From Massilia varians (GTDB lineage: Bacteria > Pseudomonadota > Gammaproteobacteria > Burkholderiales > Burkholderiaceae_D), in contig NZ_AP026966.1 in NCBI RefSeq assembly GCF_027923905.1, positions 3,597,001 through 3,661,000 of the forward strand: a DNA stretch of 64,000 nucleotides, given 5' to 3'. The notes under the pieces are model-generated. The model searched no databases. It was given only the letters and a program-made list of their open reading frames with translations, and was not told the DNA's origin. Positions 1-9,045 of this stretch are shown one piece after another; position 1 is the stretch's first letter; the number at the start of each line of letters is the position of its first letter. Made by a program: the position numbers and the translations under genes.

Positions 1-35
1 GCGCTGCGCAGCGCGCCGGACGCGGCTGCGCCGGA

Positions 36-782
36 TCAGGCCTCGCTGTCGCAGACCTGATCGCGCCCGGCCGACTTGGCCTGGTACAAACGGCGGTCGA
101 TCCGATCGAGGAAGACCTCGGCCCGGTCCTGCTTGCCTGGCACGATGGTGCCGGCCCCGATGCTGACCGTGACCAGGCGGCCCACGCCGGAACGCGCGTG
201 CGGCAACTCCTTCTGCGCCAGCAGCCGGCGGCAACGCTCCGCCACGTTGCGCGCCGCCTGGGCATCGGTCGCCGGCAACAGCAGCACGAATTCCTCGCCG
301 CCCAGGCGCGCGCACAGGTCGCGCGAGCGCGACGCCCCCGCGTCCAGCGCCGCGGCGACCTGGCGCAGGCATTCGTCGCCCTGCATGTGGCCGTAGTAAT
401 CGTTGTACTGCTTGAAGTAGTCGACGTCGACCACCAGCAGCGACAAGGGCTCCCCGGTCGCCTGCGCCTTGGCCCACTCGACCGGATACAGGGTGTCGAA
501 CATGCGGCGGTTGGCCACGCCGGTGAGGCTGTCGCGGTAGGACAGCAGCTCGAGTTCGCGCTGCAGCTGCAGGATCTTGTCCTCGGCCTGCTTGCGCGCG
601 GTGATGTCGAACATGAAGCCGGTCAGCGCCTCGATCTGCGGACCGATATAGGTGAAGCGCATGGTGGCCCAGTCGATGCGCCAGGGGATGGTCTTGCTCG
701 ATTCGAGCAGGGTGCGGTAGACGCCGGGGTCGTCGCAGGAGACCGGCGGGCATTCAGCGAGCTTGATCGTCATGATGCCCAT
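36..782 (-). CDS. Diguanylate cyclase (GGDEF) with a collapsed PAS domain
   Basis: This protein should make cyclic di-GMP from two GTP. The GGDEF domain spans about residues 80-245, with the active-site GGEEF at 161-165. An RxxD inhibitory site at 152-155 lies five residues upstream, so product feedback inhibition is expected. Residues 30-60 look like the first strands of a PAS domain (WRIDWATMRFTYIGP, then EALTG) joined directly to the end of a PAS (FMFDITARK). About 70-80 residues of the fold seem to be missing. The enzyme core is intact, but the sensor is probably not functional. Two in-frame ATGs (782 and 773) could start it; neither has a strong ribosome site. The 167 bases upstream contain no gene. 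Confidence 0.9.
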   Translation of the reverse strand: MGIMTIKLAECPPVSCDDPGVYRTLLESSKTIPWRIDWATMRFTYIGPQIEALTGFMFDITARKQAEDKILQLQRELELLSYRDSLTGVANRRMFDTLYPVEWAKAQATGEPLSLLVVDVDYFKQYNDYYGHMQGDECLRQVAAALDAGASRSRDLCARLGGEEFVLLLPATDAQAARNVAERCRRLLAQKELPHARSGVGRLVTVSIGAGTIVPGKQDRAEVFLDRIDRRLYQAKSAGRDQVCDSEA

Positions 783-949
783 GCAAGGTGGATATGCATG
801 GCATTTTGCACTGGAAACAGATTACTGTGCCAGTCTAGCTCGATTCCAGGTCGATGCGGCACCAAATGGCAAGTCCGAGGCTTCCAGCATGACGTCGCCT
901 TACAGACTCGCCACGAACGAAGCAAGGAACACTGTGCGGCGGGCCTTGC

Positions 950-1207
950 CTACCCCTGCAGCACACTGCATGCTGCCAGGTTCGCTTGGCAAAACGCTTC
1001 CCAACCCATGTGGCTGTAATGCCGCTGGAACTGAACGTCGACTCTGCAAATGTCCGGCCTGCTGTCGTAGACCCCGCACAGCTTGCTCACCTCGTCGTAG
1101 TGGATGCAGCAGCCGTCGCCCCGGTCGAGCATCGCGGTCTCGGGCGCTTTGTCGACATTGCGGCAACAGGCACCGCAGCGCGTACAAGGAAACGTGCCCT
1201 CCGTCAC
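950..1207 (-). CDS. YkgJ-like cysteine-cluster protein
   Basis: A short 85-residue protein with CTRCGACC near the N-terminus and further cysteines (GCC, LCG, DIC) spaced as in the YkgJ/UPF0153 family. That family is thought to chelate zinc or iron; its biochemical role is poorly known. The start is a GTG whose last two bases overlap the TGA of the gene before it (GTGA), so it is translationally coupled to the three membrane-type genes upstream. That makes it the fourth gene of the operon, not an independent gene. Coupling is seen in the sequence; any shared function is inference. Confidence 0.75.
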   Translation of the reverse strand: MTEGTFPCTRCGACCRNVDKAPETAMLDRGDGCCIHYDEVSKLCGVYDSRPDICRVDVQFQRHYSHMGWEAFCQANLAACSVLQG

Positions 1208-2691
1208 AGGACGAAGGCGCGTGTCGGGTCGCCCATCATGTCGTCGAACTCCTCCTGGCTACCGAAAGGCAGGCTGGCATCGAACTCTTCGTTAAGCGCC
1301 GTGAGACTGGCGAGGAAGCGGTCGCCGTCCCAGTCCACCATGGCGGATTCAAGCGCATCGAAGGCCGACAGCAGGTGCCGCCTGCGCGTGGCAAAGTGCT
1401 CCTCGATCAGCGCGTCGAACTCGAGACGGTGGGCCCGCATCAGCGGTATGGCGGTCAGACACATCGCCTCCACCCTCTCCTTGCGTTCGCGCGCCACCTT
1501 GACCACCGCCGTCTCGCCAAGACTGATGAGGCCGGACTGATGCAGCATATTGCCGACGAAGTAACCGACCGTCGAACCGATCAACGCTCCGACGACCGGT
1601 ACCGGAATCATGACCTGCCCCAATGCGCCGTAATAAAACGCAGATGCACCTGTCATTGCCGTGTGACTGACCTCAGACAGCAACTCATCTTCATCGATGT
1701 CGCCATTCAGGTAGCGCGCCAGCGATCGCCCGCTCTGCACAATGCCGGCAGCCAGAGCCACGTGAGCATTCGACTTCACGAAACGCGCACTGACGGCCTT
1801 GCCGATCTCGGGCCCGCCAAGCGAGGTGAAGCCTTCGCGTACGGCGTGAGTCGCCGCCTTGCTGAGCGCGCCCGATGCGTAGCTCATGGTGTAGCCCTTG
1901 GCGGCATCGATCGCCACCTGTGCAAGGATTTCACCAGGCTCGGCGTTACCACGAGCCAGGCGGACCAGTCCGGCTACACCGCTGACCCCGCCAGCAAGAG
2001 CGCCGCCGACCGCGCCGGCTTCCATACCGGCCTGATGTGCCTCGGACAACATCGCCCTGCGATTAAAGTCTGTCGCTATTTTCCTGGCGGCGTCAACGCC
2101 GGTTGCCTCGACCGCCTCATGGTAGTTGGTCCCGCCCGAAGTCACGTTGTCAGCTTCAATCCCGGTATGCAGGCGATTGCTTGCGCTCTCGTAGTCACCG
2201 GCTTTGAGCGTACCCGTTTTTATCCGCGCCTTATAGAGCCGTTCGACCGTCTCCTTCTGGTCGGAAGGACCAACCAGTCCGACTCCCTGGTACTTTGGAT
2301 CAGACAGTTTATATGCGGTTTCACTTGCTGCCTCGCAGGACTTGAGCTGAAACTCCTTGAGCTTGCGCTTGCCTTCCATGATGACGATATCGGCGGTCTC
2401 GTGGTTGGTCATACCGAGACTGTCGGTTGTCGCTGCCTTCAGAGTGCTGCGCTTGCCCAAGGCATCCAGGTTGAACTTGATCACCTCGAGCTGTTCGAAC
2501 TGCCATCCCTGAGCCTGGGCCGCGCAAGTGCCGGCACGTTGTTGCGCGACCTTCACGAGACGCTCGGTATCGCTGAACACACCAAGTGTCATCTTCGAGA
2601 TCTGCCGCGTTCGCGCATCAGCCAACAAGGTGGCGGCCAGCGCTTCAGGCTTCCCCGAGACGCGCTTGGTCGCCGCGTGCCGTTTGCTCAC
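1204..2691 (-). CDS. Uncharacterised protein: possible nuclease-like N-domain plus glycine-zipper membrane region
   Basis: The 495-residue protein starts at a GTG overlapping the upstream stop (GTGA); the longer open frame upstream is out-of-frame translation of the previous gene. Residues 60-130 hold a pattern resembling a PD-(D/E)XK fold: acidic residues near 66-69, D101 on a hydrophobic strand (ADIVIM) and EFQLK at 113-117. Residues 200-235 and about 330-370 are glycine/alanine-rich and hydrophobic (GAVGGALAGGVSGVAG; VPVVGALIGSTVGYFVGN), consistent with glycine-zipper membrane helices. The C-terminus is charged, helical and acidic. I do not recognise the family. The nuclease idea rests on a pattern only, and the QxK spacing is atypical. 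It could equally be a membrane toxin or stress protein. Confidence 0.7.
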   Translation of the reverse strand: MSKRHAATKRVSGKPEALAATLLADARTRQISKMTLGVFSDTERLVKVAQQRAGTCAAQAQGWQFEQLEVIKFNLDALGKRSTLKAATTDSLGMTNHETADIVIMEGKRKLKEFQLKSCEAASETAYKLSDPKYQGVGLVGPSDQKETVERLYKARIKTGTLKAGDYESASNRLHTGIEADNVTSGGTNYHEAVEATGVDAARKIATDFNRRAMLSEAHQAGMEAGAVGGALAGGVSGVAGLVRLARGNAEPGEILAQVAIDAAKGYTMSYASGALSKAATHAVREGFTSLGGPEIGKAVSARFVKSNAHVALAAGIVQSGRSLARYLNGDIDEDELLSEVSHTAMTGASAFYYGALGQVMIPVPVVGALIGSTVGYFVGNMLHQSGLISLGETAVVKVARERKERVEAMCLTAIPLMRAHRLEFDALIEEHFATRRRHLLSAFDALESAMVDWDGDRFLASLTALNEEFDASLPFGSQEEFDDMMGDPTRAFVL

Positions 2692-3695
2692 GCGCGCTCC
2701 AACGCCGCCAGCTGCTCTTTCGCACTTGCGATGACCGTGCGCGAGGCTGCTGTCAGAGCGCCATCCTTGTCGATCAGCGGCGCCTCCAGCACGTTCTTGA
2801 TGGTTTTCGCCATCGCAGCGGCCATCATGACGCCGGTACGGTCGGCGGCCGAGTAGCGGCTGTAATCCTTGCCCGCCGCAACGCGGCGCTGGAGTCCGGC
2901 GAGCAGCGGCTCGAAGTGCCTGTCCAGTTCCTTGAGGACGGAGATGATTTCCTTGAACCGCTTCTCGAGGGCCGCCGTGGCAAGCGCTGCGGTCTTCATC
3001 TCTTCCGCGGCAACGCGCGCCTTGCTCAGGTTGGAGGATGCATTCAATCGTGCCTCCTCGGCCTTTGCCGCGAGCATCATTCCGCCGACGGCCAGTACCG
3101 GCCCGGCGACGATTCCGCCCAACACGGCGGCGCCGCCCGCCATGCCGAAGCCACCCGCGCTCAGCGCCCCACCGCCCAACCATGCAAGGGTGGCGTTAGT
3201 CGCCGCCGCGCCGCTGAGACCTGCAATTGCCGTGCCCCCTGCCGTCGAAGCCAGCGCCCCCACGCCGCCGTAGGCGGCAAGGCCTGCCAATCCGCCTGCG
3301 CCGAGTGCAGTCACGCCGCCGGTCACAATGCCTTGCATGTCGAGCGCGGAACGCTCGATGGCACGCAGATCGTTGCCGCTGACGCCGGCCAGCTTGAACT
3401 CATCCTTGAGCTTCTGGTCCTGGAAGTCGATATTCTTGATTTGCTTGAATGTGTCGACAAACGGAATCAGCTTTGTCTCATACACCGAGAATTTCAGCTT
3501 GCCGAGCTGTGTCAGCGCACGCTGCGCCTTGTCCCGGGCGCTTTCCAGTTCGCTTGTGGCGTCGTTGAAGATGCTCTTTGCCTGGTTGTTCAACGAATCG
3601 GCCTTGTTGAAATCGCTCTTCGCGTCGATGCCCTTCTTGACGCCGTAACCGCCCGCGAGAACGGCTGCGCCAACCAGCAGTAGTGGCAATGGCAT
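2688..3695 (-). CDS. Uncharacterised glycine-zipper membrane protein with coiled-coil flanks
   Basis: 335 residues. It begins with a hydrophobic segment (LLLVGAAVLAGGYGV) followed by a charged helical stretch at about 25-75 that is likely coiled coil. Residues 125-215 form a long Gly/Ala-rich hydrophobic region with many GxxxG spacings (GGVTALGAGGLAGLAAYGG; AGPVLAVGGMMLAA), enough for several membrane passes. A second helical region covers 215-335. The shape resembles helical pore or membrane-remodelling proteins, but no family is recognised. The ATG lies 2 bases after the TerB-like gene, and its TGA overlaps the next gene's GTG. Confidence 0.75.
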   Translation of the reverse strand: MPLPLLLVGAAVLAGGYGVKKGIDAKSDFNKADSLNNQAKSIFNDATSELESARDKAQRALTQLGKLKFSVYETKLIPFVDTFKQIKNIDFQDQKLKDEFKLAGVSGNDLRAIERSALDMQGIVTGGVTALGAGGLAGLAAYGGVGALASTAGGTAIAGLSGAAATNATLAWLGGGALSAGGFGMAGGAAVLGGIVAGPVLAVGGMMLAAKAEEARLNASSNLSKARVAAEEMKTAALATAALEKRFKEIISVLKELDRHFEPLLAGLQRRVAAGKDYSRYSAADRTGVMMAAAMAKTIKNVLEAPLIDKDGALTAASRTVIASAKEQLAALERA

Positions 3696-3697
3696 GA

Positions 3698-4087
3698 TCA
3701 GGCCTCCATGAACTGTTCGGCTTCGCGCACGAGCGCAAACTGGCGGCGCACCCAGTTTTCCATTTGGGAAAGCTCCTCTTTACCGATATCCAGCGAATTG
3801 GCGATGCCGCTCACAAAAGCTTGCTCAGTCTCGTGATATTCGGCATCAACCAGCGCCATGCCGAGCAGTTCGAGCATCAGCGCGACCCGGTCCGAGCGGC
3901 TGGCGAACATGCCCGGCAAATCGCCGCTGCGTACCTGGACAGGCGACACAGTCGACGCCATCTGCTGGCGCAGCGTCTTCAGCAGCGCCAATTCTTCTGC
4001 AGCCTGTTTGCCGTCCGCACTCATGAGTTGCGTAGCAAATGACAGGAGTGCGCCTTGTTGGACTTCAGAAAGCCGGTTCAGAAACAT
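3698..4087 (-). CDS. TerB-like (tellurite-resistance/DUF533-type) protein
   Basis: A helical protein of 129 residues with the pattern of TerB-fold proteins. The start MFLNRLSEVQQGALLSFA and the acidic turn SADGK are followed by a second repeat containing AEYHETE. TerB domains are thought to bind metal and sit under the membrane in stress and anti-phage modules. I chose the ATG at 4087 because AAGG lies 9 bases upstream and family members begin MFLNRL; an ATG at 4141 would add 18 residues. It is the first gene of the coupled operon, and the 240 bases upstream hold no other gene. Confidence 0.7.
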   Translation of the reverse strand: MFLNRLSEVQQGALLSFATQLMSADGKQAAEELALLKTLRQQMASTVSPVQVRSGDLPGMFASRSDRVALMLELLGMALVDAEYHETEQAFVSGIANSLDIGKEELSQMENWVRRQFALVREAEQFMEA

Positions 4088-4327
4088 GGTAAATGCCTTG
4101 GTAATGTTGATTAAAGCTGACTCAGGGGAGCCACCATCCACACATTTTACCTAGAGGAAACATTACCAATCATCACGAATAGTTTCAGCTTTGTGTGTTT
4201 TACGAGGCCGATTGCAACTTCCGATAAGAGCCCGGTCGATCGCCCCTGGCAGAGCATCTCGGCAAGGCCCGACGACGCGCACGGGGACGTGCGGCCCCGA
4301 CCGCTCATGACGCCAGGAAGACGGTGC

Positions 4328-4960
4328 TCAGCCCTGTCCGGACGCCAGCGCGATCCGGCGCCGGATCCGTTCGGCTTCGCGGGTATCGCCGGCCGCCTCG
4401 GCCCGCTGCGCCTGCACGCCCAGCCAGGCCAGCAGAGGACGGCGCCAGCCCTGGTTCGATGCCGTGTCGATGGCCTGCACGATGCCGTCCGGCGTGATGC
4501 GTCCGGCCTTGAACGCGGCCCCGGCGGCCACCAGGCGCGCCAGCGGATCGGTCACGCCGGCGACCTGGCCGGTGGCGGCGACCGATTGGTGCTGCGCGGG
4601 CAGCAGCGCGGGATTCAAGCCCTGCCAGCGGCCGTAGAGATAGTCGGCATAGGCGCGCTGTTCCGGCGTGGCCTCCTCTGCCAGTCTGGTGTAGCCCGGA
4701 CAGTCGTCGAAATCCAGGCTGGCGACCTGCGCAGCGCAGCGCACCAGTTCGACCTGGGCCACGTAGTCCGGGCGGCCGGTGCTGGTGGTGGCCGTGCGCG
4801 CCGTGCGGAATTGCGCGGCGGCGGCGGCGGTGTAGCCCTTCAGGTAATCGTCCACCGACGCGTCGAGGGAGCCTTTGGCGTCCGCCTGCCAGTCGGGCGG
4901 CAAGGGTTTGCTGGCGCAGGCAGCCAGCATGGCCAAGGTGAGGAAGGCGAGGATTCTCAT
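4328..4960 (-). CDS. Lipoprotein of the MCE operon
   Basis: 210 residues with a lipoprotein signal (MRILAFLTLAMLAAC, lipobox LAAC). The mature part is alpha-helical with two CxxC-like separated cysteines (VRCAAQ, DDCPG) and helix-pair patterns resembling TPR/Sel1 solenoids. It does not look like the PqiC/auxiliary lipoprotein usually found with MCE transporters. Its ATG overlaps the stop of the MlaD gene by 4 bases, so it is coupled to it and probably serves the same lipid transport complex at the outer membrane. Function is inferred from position only. Confidence 0.65.
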   Translation of the reverse strand: MRILAFLTLAMLAACASKPLPPDWQADAKGSLDASVDDYLKGYTAAAAAQFRTARTATTSTGRPDYVAQVELVRCAAQVASLDFDDCPGYTRLAEEATPEQRAYADYLYGRWQGLNPALLPAQHQSVAATGQVAGVTDPLARLVAAGAAFKAGRITPDGIVQAIDTASNQGWRRPLLAWLGVQAQRAEAAGDTREAERIRRRIALASGQG

Positions 4961-5889
4961 GGCAGCTTGATCTCCTGGTCGCTGCGGGCGAACGGCCACT
5001 TGCGGTTGATCTCGTCCACCAGGCGGTTCACCTTGCGCAGGCTGGCGTCGACCTCGCCGCGCAGCGCGCCCAGGTCCTGGGTGGCCACGCGGGCGTTGGC
5101 GCCCACGGCCTGGGCCTCGACCAGCACCGCATCCACCTTCTTGAGCGTGGTGCTGGCATCCTGCAACACCACGTGCAATTGGCGGATCGCCAGCTGGGCA
5201 TCGTCCATCACGCCGTCCTTGCCGTAGATGCGCTGCTCGGTCTTGCCCAGCAGGGAGTTGATACGGTCGAGCGCCTCGCGCAGCTTGCGCGCTTCCGCGT
5301 CGCCGCCCATCACGCCGCCCAGCACCCCGCCGGGGCCGTTCAGGCGGCCGGTGACGGCATTGATGTTGGCCAGGCTGGCGTTGATGTCGGAATCGTTCGC
5401 CGTCATGGTCTCCAGGTTTTCCAGCAGCGCACGCGCGGTCGCGACGATGCGCGGGATCTCGGCGGTGGCGTCGCCGCGCAGCACCTGGCGGGTGGCGCCG
5501 GCGGGCAGCGGCGGATCGTTCAGCAGGCCGGTGAAGGCGCGCAGGCGGGTTTCGCCGACGATGCTCGACTCCAGCGTGAACACGCTCGAGGTGCGCAGCC
5601 ACTTGGCGTCCTTGCTCTGCACGTCCACCAGGATGCGCACCTTGCCCTCCGGCGAGAGCTCGACCTGGCTGACGCGCCCGATCGGAAAGCCGGCGAAGGT
5701 CATGTCCATGCCCGGGATCACCCCGGACGAATCGTCGGTTTCCAGCACCAGCCGCTGGGTCGGCTCGAACACGCCGCGCGCGTGCATCACGTAGCCGAAG
5801 AAGGCGACGACCAGGATGCCGATCGCCGCCAACAGGATCATCGCCTTGAGTTCGACGTGTTTCGGTTCGTCCGGCAGGGGTTCGGTCAT
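4957..5889 (-). CDS. MlaD/MCE-family lipid transport protein
   Basis: 310 residues. One N-terminal membrane helix (about 14-37, AMILLAAIGILVVAFFGYV) is followed by an MCE domain at about 42-120 with the typical GVIPGMDMTFAGFPIGRV. A long periplasmic helical tail (about 140-300) should form the coiled tube or needle of MCE hexamers. In Mla/Pqi/Yrb systems these proteins carry phospholipids between the two membranes. The gene is 18 bases downstream of the permease gene and overlaps the lipoprotein gene. Confidence 0.85.
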   Translation of the reverse strand: MTEPLPDEPKHVELKAMILLAAIGILVVAFFGYVMHARGVFEPTQRLVLETDDSSGVIPGMDMTFAGFPIGRVSQVELSPEGKVRILVDVQSKDAKWLRTSSVFTLESSIVGETRLRAFTGLLNDPPLPAGATRQVLRGDATAEIPRIVATARALLENLETMTANDSDINASLANINAVTGRLNGPGGVLGGVMGGDAEARKLREALDRINSLLGKTEQRIYGKDGVMDDAQLAIRQLHVVLQDASTTLKKVDAVLVEAQAVGANARVATQDLGALRGEVDASLRKVNRLVDEINRKWPFARSDQEIKLP

Positions 5890-5907
5890 GGGACTCCTAT
5901 TCTTGTT

Positions 5908-6714
5908 TTAGATGTATTTCAGCGCCAGCGATGCGGCCTCGATTACCAGGAGCACGAACAGCAGGCGCAGCGCGCCCGGCTGCACCGTGGAATTGACGCG
6001 GCGCGGGTAGCGCTGCAGTTCGAGGATGGCGGCGGTCGGGATCAGGGCCACGGCCAGGCCGAAGAACACGGTCTTGAGCACGAAGCCGACCGTCACCGTG
6101 GGCGAGAACACGCGGCCGACGGTGCGGGTGTAGTCCGCGATCCCCCAGGGCAGCAGGCCGTACACGTTCAGGTAGGCCAGCACCAGCACGATGGTGCTGG
6201 TGACCATGGCCAGGCTGGTCACCGCGACCGAGTTCGCCAGCAGCTGCGGCACCATGTCGCGCCGCAGCCGGCGCAGGGCTTCGTCGTTGGCGGCCTGCGG
6301 CGACAGGCCGGCGCGCGCCAGCCCGAGGGCGGAGGCGTCAAACGCCATGCTGGCGCGCAGGGCCACGAACATCGCGGCGGACAGGGGAATCAGTTCGAGC
6401 ACCAGCACCCGCACCACCATCTCGAGCGCGAAATGCGACAGTCCGTAGCTCTTGGCGGTGACCAGCACGATGCGGATGATGACCAGGCTGATCAGGGTCG
6501 AGGCCAGCGAGAAGCCGGGCAGCACCTGCCAGGTGCTGGCGTAGATGTGGCGCGCGGCCGCCAGCCGGTTGGCGCGGTTGTAGGTCGAGGGCGACAGCGC
6601 CATCACCAGCGCGACCGCGCCCAGGTGCACCATATACCACCAGCTGCGCAGGTAGCGCAGGAAGGCGAGGCCCCACAGGCTCGGGTTGGCGTAGAGGTTG
6701 AGGGTTCGGCGCAT
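5908..6714 (-). CDS. MlaE-family ABC transporter permease
   Basis: 268 residues with about five to six hydrophobic helices and the MlaE permease layout. The conserved central region has ELIPLSAAMFVALRASMAFDA, and the C-terminal helices follow TVGFVLKTVFFGLAVALIP. It should form the inner-membrane part of an MCE lipid transporter with the MlaD protein downstream. The ATG at 6714 is chosen over an in-frame TTG at 6732. No ATPase (MlaF) or STAS protein (MlaB) gene lies between this gene and its neighbours, which is unusual. relA lies 78 bases upstream on the same strand. Confidence 0.82.
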   Translation of the reverse strand: MRRTLNLYANPSLWGLAFLRYLRSWWYMVHLGAVALVMALSPSTYNRANRLAAARHIYASTWQVLPGFSLASTLISLVIIRIVLVTAKSYGLSHFALEMVVRVLVLELIPLSAAMFVALRASMAFDASALGLARAGLSPQAANDEALRRLRRDMVPQLLANSVAVTSLAMVTSTIVLVLAYLNVYGLLPWGIADYTRTVGRVFSPTVTVGFVLKTVFFGLAVALIPTAAILELQRYPRRVNSTVQPGALRLLFVLLVIEAASLALKYI

Positions 6715-6792
6715 GGTGTCAATATGATACAAATTCCGGTGGATGTGCCCGAATTTTGTATCGAATCGATACCGGCGCCGGCACGGAGCCCG

Positions 6793-9045
6793 TCATTGGC
6801 GGCGCGCCTCCATCACCCCTTTCACCTCGGCGATCGCCGCCAGCGCCTTGTTCAGCTGCCCAGTCGACCCGATCTCCGCCGTGAACACCATGCGCGCCTG
6901 CCCCTTGCTGCTTTGCGTGTTCACGCCGATTACGTTGATCTTCTCGCGCATGAACACGTCCGAGATATCGCGCAGCAGCCCTTGCCGGTCCATCGCCAGG
7001 ATGAACAGGTCGACCGGATACACGGTTTCCAGCCCGGCCGAACCCCACTCGGTCTGGATCACCCGCTCGGGCGCCTTGGCGCGCATCTCGGCGAAGTTCT
7101 TGCAGCTCAGGCGGTGGATCGAGACGCCCTTGCCGCGCGTGACGAAGCCGCAGATCGGGTCCGGCGGCGCCGGCTTGCAGCATTTGGCGAGCATGGTCAT
7201 CAAGCCCTCGGTGCCGACCACCAGCACGCCCGACTTGGCGCCCTGCTCCACGCTCGAGGCGCGGCTCTTGTTGACCACCGCTTCGTCGACCGGCGGCGGG
7301 CTTTCCGCCGTGTCGTGCAGGGCCGCTTCCACGTGGCGCAGGCTGAACTTCTCCTTGCCGACCTGGATGAACAGCTCGTCGACCTTGGCAAAGCCCAGTT
7401 TCTGCGCCAGCGCTTCCAGGTTGACCGCGGTCTTGCCCTCGCGCTGGAGCGACTTTTCGACCAGCGCGCGTCCCTGCGCCAGGGTCTCGGCCTGTTCCTG
7501 GGCGTGGAACCAGGCCCGGATCTTGGAGCGAGTGCGGCTGCTGACCGTGTAGCCGGGACTGAGCCAGTCGCGCGAGGGCCCCTGGGTGCCGGTCGGGCCC
7601 TTGGCGGTGATGATCTCGCAGGTCTGGCCGTTGCGCAAAGGCGTGTTCAGCGGCACCATCACGCCGTCGATCTTGGCGCCGCGGCAGCGGTGGCCCACCT
7701 CGCTGTGCAGGTGGTAGGCGAAGTCGATCGGGGTCGCGCCCTGCGGCAGTTCGAGCACCCGCGCCTGCGGCGTCAGCACGAAGATGCGGTCGTCCAGGGT
7801 GGCGGCCTTGAGCTTCTCGACCCATTCCTTCTGCAGGTCTTCCTGGCCCGCGACCACGTCGGCCACGTCGCTCTTCCAGGCCAGCAGCTGGCGCAGCCAG
7901 GCGATCTTCTCGTCGTACTTCTGGCTCTTGAAGTTGGAACCGCCCTCTTCCTTGTAGCGCCAGTGGGCGGCGACGCCGTACTCGGCGAAGTTGTGCATCT
8001 CCTGGGTGCGGATCTGCACTTCCAGCGGCCGCCCGTCCTCGGCGGTGACGACCGTGTGCAGCGACTGGTAGCCGTTCGGCTTGGGGCGCGAGATGTAGTC
8101 GTCGAATTCCTTCGGGATCGGGGTCCAGATGTTGTGGACGATCCCCAGCACCGTGTAGCAGGCCTTGACGTCCTCGACGATCACGCGGAAGGCGCGCACG
8201 TCGTACAGCGAGGAGAAATCGAGCTCCTTGCCGCGCATCTTCTTCCAGATGCTGTAGATGTGTTTCGGCCGGCCCGAGACCTCGGCCTTGATGCCGGCCT
8301 CGCGCAGCTCCTTTTCCAGCCGGTCGATCGAGGACTGCACGAAGCCTTCGCGCTGCGCGCGCTTCTCTTCGAGCATCCTGGCGATCTGGCGGTAGGCATC
8401 CGGCTCGATGAAGCGGAAGGACAGGTCTTCCAGCTCCCACTTGAGCTGCCAGATGCCAAGCCGGTTGGCCAGCGGCGCGTAGAACTCGAGTACCTCGCGC
8501 CCATAGGCGCGGGTGACCTCGTCGAAGCGCTTCTGCTCGGCGAAGTAGCGCAGGCTGGTGGCGCAGGCGGCCAGCCGCATCAGCACCACGCGCATGTCCG
8601 AGGCCATCGCCAGCAGCATCTTGCGCAAGGTCTCGACCTGGGCGGCGGCCTGCTGGGCGGCGTTCTTGCCGGCGCTCTTCGCTTCGGCGACCTGGTCCTT
8701 GCCAGCGGTGAGGTCGCGCAGCTTGACCAGCTGGTAGACGCCCTGCACCAGGTTCGAGACCTCCTTGCCGAAGCGCTCTTCGAGCGAGCCGGCCACCGCC
8801 GGGTCCATCATCGCCAGCTCGAACAGCAGGCCGGCAATGCGGGTCTCGGCATCGGTGCGCAGCAGCGCCAGCGTGCCGGCCACGCCGAGCGAGAATTCGA
8901 ACGCATCCTGGCCGGTGCCGGCGCTGCGCTCGCCATACATGCTGCCGGCGTAATCCAGCGCCGCCTGGACCCGCGCGCAGTCTTCCACGCCGAGTCCCTG
9001 GACCAGCTGGGTGCTGGCGTCACCGAGTAAAACGCTTGCGACCAT
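6793..9045 (-). CDS. relA: RelA-type (p)ppGpp synthetase
   Basis: 750 residues with the long RelA/SpoT layout. The N-terminal hydrolase domain lacks the catalytic HD motif (LLFELAMMD at 73-81, as in monofunctional RelA). The synthetase domain is at about 240-360, with GRPKHIYSIWKKM and YDVRAFRVIVED. TGS is at about 400-465 (FVLTPQ...LPQGATPIDFAYHLH), a Cys-rich zinc-finger/RIS region has AKCCKP, and a C-terminal ACT domain ends the protein. It should make (p)ppGpp on stalled ribosomes from ATP and GTP/GDP. It probably cannot hydrolyse it, so a separate SpoT should exist elsewhere. ridA is 20 bases upstream and the MCE genes follow 78 bases downstream. Confidence 0.95.
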   Translation of the reverse strand: MVASVLLGDASTQLVQGLGVEDCARVQAALDYAGSMYGERSAGTGQDAFEFSLGVAGTLALLRTDAETRIAGLLFELAMMDPAVAGSLEERFGKEVSNLVQGVYQLVKLRDLTAGKDQVAEAKSAGKNAAQQAAAQVETLRKMLLAMASDMRVVLMRLAACATSLRYFAEQKRFDEVTRAYGREVLEFYAPLANRLGIWQLKWELEDLSFRFIEPDAYRQIARMLEEKRAQREGFVQSSIDRLEKELREAGIKAEVSGRPKHIYSIWKKMRGKELDFSSLYDVRAFRVIVEDVKACYTVLGIVHNIWTPIPKEFDDYISRPKPNGYQSLHTVVTAEDGRPLEVQIRTQEMHNFAEYGVAAHWRYKEEGGSNFKSQKYDEKIAWLRQLLAWKSDVADVVAGQEDLQKEWVEKLKAATLDDRIFVLTPQARVLELPQGATPIDFAYHLHSEVGHRCRGAKIDGVMVPLNTPLRNGQTCEIITAKGPTGTQGPSRDWLSPGYTVSSRTRSKIRAWFHAQEQAETLAQGRALVEKSLQREGKTAVNLEALAQKLGFAKVDELFIQVGKEKFSLRHVEAALHDTAESPPPVDEAVVNKSRASSVEQGAKSGVLVVGTEGLMTMLAKCCKPAPPDPICGFVTRGKGVSIHRLSCKNFAEMRAKAPERVIQTEWGSAGLETVYPVDLFILAMDRQGLLRDISDVFMREKINVIGVNTQSSKGQARMVFTAEIGSTGQLNKALAAIAEVKGVMEARRQ

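Follow-up and report, generated by a model that had tools for sequence, protein, structure and literature searches.

A recurrent four-gene unit in Massilia varians combining TerB-like, glycine-rich membrane and eight-cysteine proteins: a candidate accessory effector system

The four-gene unit and its recurrence

We analyzed a 64,000-nucleotide stretch of the Massilia varians genome (assembly GCF_027923905.1, contig NZ_AP026966.1, positions 3,597,001 to 3,661,000; hereafter the window), in which four minus-strand open reading frames (ORFs) within positions 950..4087 form a tightly packed unit (Table 1). Genes 1 and 2 are separated by 2 bases, and genes 2 and 3 (2691-2688) and genes 3 and 4 (1207-1204) each overlap by GTGA, confirming the coupled arrangement that an earlier note had read from the DNA. 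Domain analysis bore out its assignments of the outer genes: gene 1 matches TerB (PF05099; 32.7 bits against a cut-off of 24.4) and gene 4 matches the YkgJ-type CxxCxxCC family (PF03692; 28.3 bits against a cut-off of 23). Genes 2 and 3 had been described as Gly/Ala-zipper membrane proteins; Gly/Ala-rich hydrophobic stretches are indeed present in both, but Pfam glycine-zipper matches were obtained for gene 3 only and lie below the cut-off. Membership in a well-known housekeeping family had also been considered, and Pfam, NCBIfam and PHROGs returned no such family for the unit's proteins.

Table 1. Features of the unit, with positions in the window
Feature	Position	Strand	Evidence
Gene 1, TerB-like, 129 aa	3698..4087	-	Pfam TerB above cut-off; two D-x6-E pairs (D25/E32, D81/E88)
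Gene 2, PADLOC PDC-M09A, long-helix membrane protein rich in glycine, 335 aa	2688..3695	-	PADLOC match, hydrophobic stretches, model
Gene 2, conserved glycine core, residues 126-205	3081..3320	-	Gly/Ala/Thr columns
Gene 3, putative effector carrier, PADLOC PDC-M09B, 495 aa	1204..2691	-	PADLOC match, homologue alignment
Gene 3, N-terminal PD-(D/E)XK-like domain, residues 57-159 (E66, D101, Q115-x-K117)	2215..2523	-	Alignment and model
Gene 3, hydrophobic glycine-zipper-like region, residues 220-390	1522..2034	-	Hydrophobic stretches; weak Gly-zipper matches below Pfam cut-off
Gene 3, constant helical C-terminal region, residues 391-495	1207..1521	-	Matches stand-alone ORFs
Gene 4, eight-cysteine cluster protein, CxxCxxCC type, 85 aa	950..1207	-	Pfam PF03692; invariant cysteines
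Segment without counterpart in the nearest relative found	743..4326	.	blastn against L163

The unit is real, modular and recurrent, and its presence varies between genomes. With an alignment of five gene 2 proteins as query, genome contigs yielded at least 268 relatives, of which we kept 80; these span Pseudomonadota, Campylobacterota, Bacillota, Bacteroidota, Actinomycetota, Spirochaetota and others (from record titles, with phyla assigned partly by reading). Viral contigs yielded one gene 2 match, and tblastn of gene 2 against phage records yielded none. Iterated profiles (E 1e-4) were then run over 6390 ORFs, called with a simple ORF caller, from 87 loci. Across the 81 loci fetched by gene 2 (80 from genomes and one from a viral contig), gene 3 lay beside gene 2 in 77 (in six as a stand-alone tail protein only), the TerB gene in 44, the eight-cysteine gene in 39, and all four in 17. 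For the 42 loci whose flanks reach 2.5 kb or more on each side, the corresponding counts were 41, 20, 24 and 9.

This survey upheld the expectation that the genes would recur together in other genomes, but not in a single fixed order. Besides the window's arrangement (TerB, gene 2, gene 3, Cys), we found gene 3-TerB-gene 2 with or without a following Cys gene, TerB-Cys-gene 2-gene 3, Cys-gene 2-gene 3, and gene 3-gene 2-Cys. Neighbouring genes of the unit mostly overlap slightly or lie up to a few tens of bases apart, and none of the four families was matched on the opposite strand at any of the 81 loci. Aromatoleum evansii (L021) retains the window's gene order, with gene 2 at 67% identity. 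Because the four families adjoin one another in distant phyla, their association is more than chance, and this recurrence rules out a fortuitous neighbourhood.

Sequence conservation within the families is concentrated at characteristic positions. The gene 2 core contains many Gly/Ala/Thr columns kept in 75-86 of 86 rows; its structural model consists of long helices, with low confidence at residues 127-205, the conserved glycine core. In the aligned gene 1 set, query included, the acidic residues D25 (31/32), E32 (28/32), D81 (31/32) and E88 (30/32) are nearly constant, and the TerB profile scored 31.5 bits on the Aromatoleum relative and 24.0 and 19.3 bits, both below the cut-off, on two others (L032 and L037). 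Cysteines C8, C11, C14, C15, C34, C44, C54 and C80 of gene 4 are invariant in all 41 rows, including the query. The conserved TerB acidic pairs, together with the eight cysteines, suggest a bound metal or cluster, and the eight-cysteine protein itself probably carries a bound metal or iron-sulfur cluster.

A variable head on a constant gene 3 carrier

Alignment of gene 3 relatives revealed a constant part, comprising the glycine-zipper region and a helical tail, and an N-terminal head that varies from one relative to another. The protein's hydrophobic stretches lie at residues 225-246 and 352-380. The earlier interpretation of gene 3 as a pore- or ring-forming protein had overlooked a separate, nuclease-like head beyond the membrane part. 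The tail matches stand-alone ORFs of 130-153 aa in 7 of the 87 loci (hhalign probability 96.9, against 0.1-1.9 for four controls).

In the alignment, positions equivalent to G62, E66, D101, Q115 and K117 (window numbering) are kept in the N-terminus of most relatives, and E66, D101, Q/E115 and K117 occur together in 48 of the 76 aligned rows, the window's protein included. The AlphaFold model of gene 3 (mean pLDDT 81) predicts, with high confidence in the head, the order helix-strand-strand-strand-helix-strand-helix, with elements at residues 57-79 (helix), 84-88, 102-106 and 109-116 (strands), 122-129 (helix) and 138-140 (strand). In the PD-(D/E)XK superfamily, a core of one helix, three strands, a helix and a strand bears the residues E .. 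D .. (D/E/Q)xK, and the residues and predicted order of the gene 3 head fit this pattern. On the strength of these residues and the model, we read the head as a putative nuclease; we term it PD-(D/E)XK-like, not a member of the superfamily, because neither comparison with Mrr and UPF0102 profiles nor a fold search linked it to known members.

Other relatives carry other heads. The 76 rows comprise 48 with the four residues, three LRAT heads (Pfam 7.8e-24 to 1.3e-16), nine M48-type heads, one HNH-like head by script, two partial rows and 13 outside these classes. The M48-type class was assigned to long relatives by length and an HExxH motif, with Pfam support in both of the two checked. An HNH head, proposed for L097 by script pattern and for L054 and L057 by eye, was not supported, as no Pfam nuclease match was found; the script had counted L054 in the four-residue or another class, and one of the by-eye cases is one of the two partial rows.

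The combination of a nuclease-like head, a glycine zipper and exchangeable heads resembles exported polymorphic toxins that kill competitors, in which the zipper would help the head cross the target membrane, as reported for Tde1, a DNase effector of the type VI secretion system with a glycine zipper motif (PMC10240207, available portion). In contrast to such an effector, no secretion domain was seen in the window's unit by Pfam. Gene 3 proteins scanned one by one gave no domain for trafficking or secretion either, and none figures among the 25 families listed for 44 gene 3 members. Gene 3 travels instead with a second membrane protein (gene 2) and two regulator-like genes, and we consider an exported toxin improbable.

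Neither gene 3 nor gene 2 had a match at E 0.001 in a fold search of the Protein Data Bank (PDB). A sequence search of solved structures reached a best E of 0.005 with helical or coiled-coil proteins, and a contig search with gene 3 alone found no relative. PADLOC model PDC-M72B matches gene 3 over residues 90-129 (5.5e-5). Among viral structures, the gene 3 model matched only a J-domain protein of Bodo saltans virus at E <=0.001 (E 5.4e-5, 274 columns). Weak Pfam matches to C19orf12, a human disease gene (PMC4470416, available portion), occur below the cut-off in two gene 3 relatives (L061:8374-9753, 6.1e-6; L085:1556-2899, 1.6e-4) and, at E 0.5, in 5 of 44 other gene 3 members. At a further locus (L018:3168-17884), a relative of gene 3 that lacks a recognisable gene 2 is followed by a helicase matching PADLOC MkoA at 2.5e-101 and adjoins mutS-like and integrase-like genes (both names by reading). 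Its position beside an MkoA-type helicase raises the possibility that the carrier serves other systems too.

Known systems, genomic neighbourhood and patchy spread

Genes 2 and 3 are already catalogued in PADLOC as an uncharacterised candidate pair, PDC-M09A/B, where PDC denotes phage defence candidate. Gene 2 matches PDC-M09A at 2.3e-26 and 3.2e-24 (residues 25-304), and gene 3 matches PDC-M09B at 1.5e-13 (residues 312-386) and 5.6e-9 (residues 219-386), leaving the head uncovered. The two proteins adjoin here with a 4-base overlap, the adjacency rule being assumed from the A/B names, and the same two genes occur in the same order in another genome (G255, locus L017; A model 2.9e-105). The window's unit differs from the catalogued pair in its TerB and eight-cysteine proteins, neither of which matched a PADLOC model at E 1. 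The earlier note, which could match this combination to no described system, missed the PDC-M09 match of genes 2 and 3. Its proposal that the genes act as a single coupled system of membrane effectors and possible sensors agrees with the recurrence in many phyla, but the core pair was already catalogued. The term PDC-M09 was not found in the literature searched, nor were the four-gene form and the head exchange (a search of limited depth).

Two described defence systems were compared with the unit. Eleos LeoBC matches gene 2 weakly (4e-4, residues 95-293), PDC-M09A being far stronger; Eleos has a dynamin-like GTPase, whereas the eight window proteins that were scanned with Pfam include no GTPase, and membership was rejected. 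Shango is an anti-phage system that contains a TerB-like protein (PMC10250203, available portion), the type to which gene 1 belongs. Shango further includes a helicase and an ATPase, families that Pfam does not find in the window's unit, and membership in Shango was likewise rejected.

Regulatory genes of the WYL type are concentrated around the unit. For this count, 38 genomes were selected out of the 80 loci, mainly those on longer contigs; 11 WYL genes in 11 of the genomes lie within 5 kb of the 42 strong gene 2 copies, against 0.31 expected (100 WYL genes in 134 Mb). WYL was matched by 9 of 145 nearest neighbours (taken from 238 candidates, and including one gene 2 relative, in L097), and is absent among the 25 families listed for 131 control ORFs (from 250 candidates in 40 stretches of 38 genomes), where no family has more than two matches. 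BrxR-family WYL regulators often adjoin defence systems (PMC9122601, available portion), and fusions of WYL domains to TerB domains are reported as well (PMC4012209, available portion). PADLOC families among the 145 neighbours include JukA and capH (three matches each) and a few others (two each). DUF3944 was matched by three of the 145, which are genes directly adjoining the unit in L050, L051 and L062 (placement by reading of first residues).

All three annotated plasmid records found carry, within about two genes of the unit, a WYL gene with DUF3320, a type I restriction-modification (R-M) gene set, or a phosphorothioation-associated gene. On a Vitreoscilla plasmid (L171:1680-8915), a gene 2 relative directly follows a type I R-M gene set, and on a Massilia sp. 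H6 plasmid gene 2 occurs together with a YkgJ-family gene and a short tail protein. These plasmid copies, one of them beside conjugation genes, would also suit a module for plasmid or element stability and exclusion, built as a toxin with linked controllers, instead of anti-phage defence, and the window copy occupies a site that varies between relatives. However, this copy is chromosomal, since its contig measures 5.6 Mb, and no antitoxin appears among the 25 most frequent neighbour families listed, in which helix-turn-helix families have two to four members each. We regard such a module as quite improbable.

The distribution of the unit is patchy. We searched 31 genomes of the genus, the window's own included, with the neighbouring GGDEF protein and fetched eight stretches. 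In the closest other genome (G439, locus L163), blastn aligned both flanks at 92-95% nucleotide identity and the unit is absent, its site being occupied by about 1 kb with another gene. That gene (L163:1680-2711) resembles an aminoglycoside acetyltransferase relative (name by reading). The other seven stretches match the window only at the GGDEF gene, and tblastn of the four unit proteins found none of them in the eight stretches. The unit has a GC content of 0.615, compared with about 0.68 in its flanks. PDC-M09A matches occur in 10 of 399 genomes of the order, four of them below 1e-20, and gene 2 profile matches in 17 of 398 genomes of the phylum, nine below 1e-20. The window's own genome is part of each count, and the weaker matches often span only a portion of the protein.

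This distribution bears on an intracellular stress module, in which metal or redox stress would be detected at the membrane by TerB and the cysteine cluster, and targets would be remodelled or degraded by gene 3 for survival, with no specificity for phage. The conserved acidic and cysteine residues are consistent with such a role, the TerB and CxxCxxCC family names are tied to tellurite and metal chelation, and WYL domains also control DNA-damage responses (PMC10693628, available portion). Head exchange, patchy spread and the lack of the unit at the corresponding site of the nearest relative found would nevertheless be unusual for a housekeeping stress response, and we judge this explanation unlikely.

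Candidate function and flanking genes

We interpret the unit as an accessory, horizontally spread, membrane-tethered effector system whose most likely role is abortive anti-phage or anti-plasmid defence, an interpretation to which we assign roughly an even chance. Genes 2 and 3 would form the membrane core, with gene 2 as the dedicated membrane partner of gene 3. The latter would carry its head, a toxic or enzymatic part that can be exchanged and is PD-(D/E)XK-like here, on a membrane segment of the glycine-zipper type joined to the constant helical tail. The TerB protein, with its acidic, metal-site-like residues, and the eight-cysteine protein may keep this core inactive, or may sense a change in ions, redox state or the membrane. 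Infection or entry of foreign DNA would then release or activate the head, which would damage nucleic acid (or lipid or protein, in the case of other heads) and cause growth stop or cell death.

Several results weigh against this interpretation. TerB and the eight-cysteine gene are each missing from many loci, and 7 of the 42 well-flanked loci have neither. Comparison of the gene 3 head with Mrr and UPF0102 profiles gave a probability of 0.3 (positive control, Mrr against UPF0102, 79.8; the alignments are small, with 8 of 16 and 17 of 27 sequences kept). No Pfam nuclease appears among the 25 families listed for 44 gene 3 members, and the PDB fold search with the head gave no significant solved fold, EcoT38I appearing at rank 43 with E 3.0. 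Gene 3 also diverges fast, with direct matches in 3 of 300 genomes of the order. PADLOC families are not enriched around the unit, with 134 for the 145 neighbours versus 182 for the 131 control ORFs, a comparison in which 38 of the 40 control stretches begin at contig ends and a few R-M proteins match many models. N6 methylases are not enriched either: among the matches listed on gene-2 contigs, we counted none against 1.2 expected within 10 kb, 1 against 2.4 within 20 kb and 5 against 3.5 within 30 kb.

The enrichment in defence islands that the earlier note had proposed to look for is therefore unsupported in general, because neither PADLOC families nor N6 methylases exceed controls or expectation. 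The suggested defence role rests on context, namely the WYL neighbours and the three plasmid neighbourhoods, set against these general counts. Taken as a whole, the earlier interpretation is only partly supported, because PDC-M09 was already known, gene 3 has a separate domain, and the case for defence is contextual.

A broader and more doubtful possibility is that the unit exemplifies a widespread, undescribed class of immune effectors, in which swappable heads (nuclease-like, LRAT, M48 peptidase and others) on a glycine-zipper pair are gated by TerB and eight-cysteine proteins, often under WYL control: one sensing platform with many killing chemistries. If so, a two-protein catalogue candidate would expand to a four-gene form with a modular effector whose heads include three recognisable types, and different heads could be compared on one platform. 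It would also offer a testable view of sensing, through a membrane-located metal or redox cluster, and explain why TerB and YkgJ-type cysteine proteins frequently travel with glycine-zipper proteins across unrelated bacteria.

At the locus itself, the frame of gene 1 is open from a GTG at 4141, and its start is thus not proven; the 127-aa ORF of Aromatoleum evansii, the closest relative with a TerB gene, is consistent with the ATG at 4087. Promoter and terminator scans found sites no more numerous than in shuffles, and an Rfam search of window positions 1-9000 gave no match. MlaE, MlaD and a small gene with no Pfam match above the cut-off lie upstream of the unit, and a GGDEF gene (window 36-782) adjoins it downstream. 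Compared with the eight relatives fetched, this GGDEF gene lacks about 200 bases inside its N-terminal part, which reads as PAS-like, and its protein is 248 aa long in the window versus 316 aa in the closest other genome.

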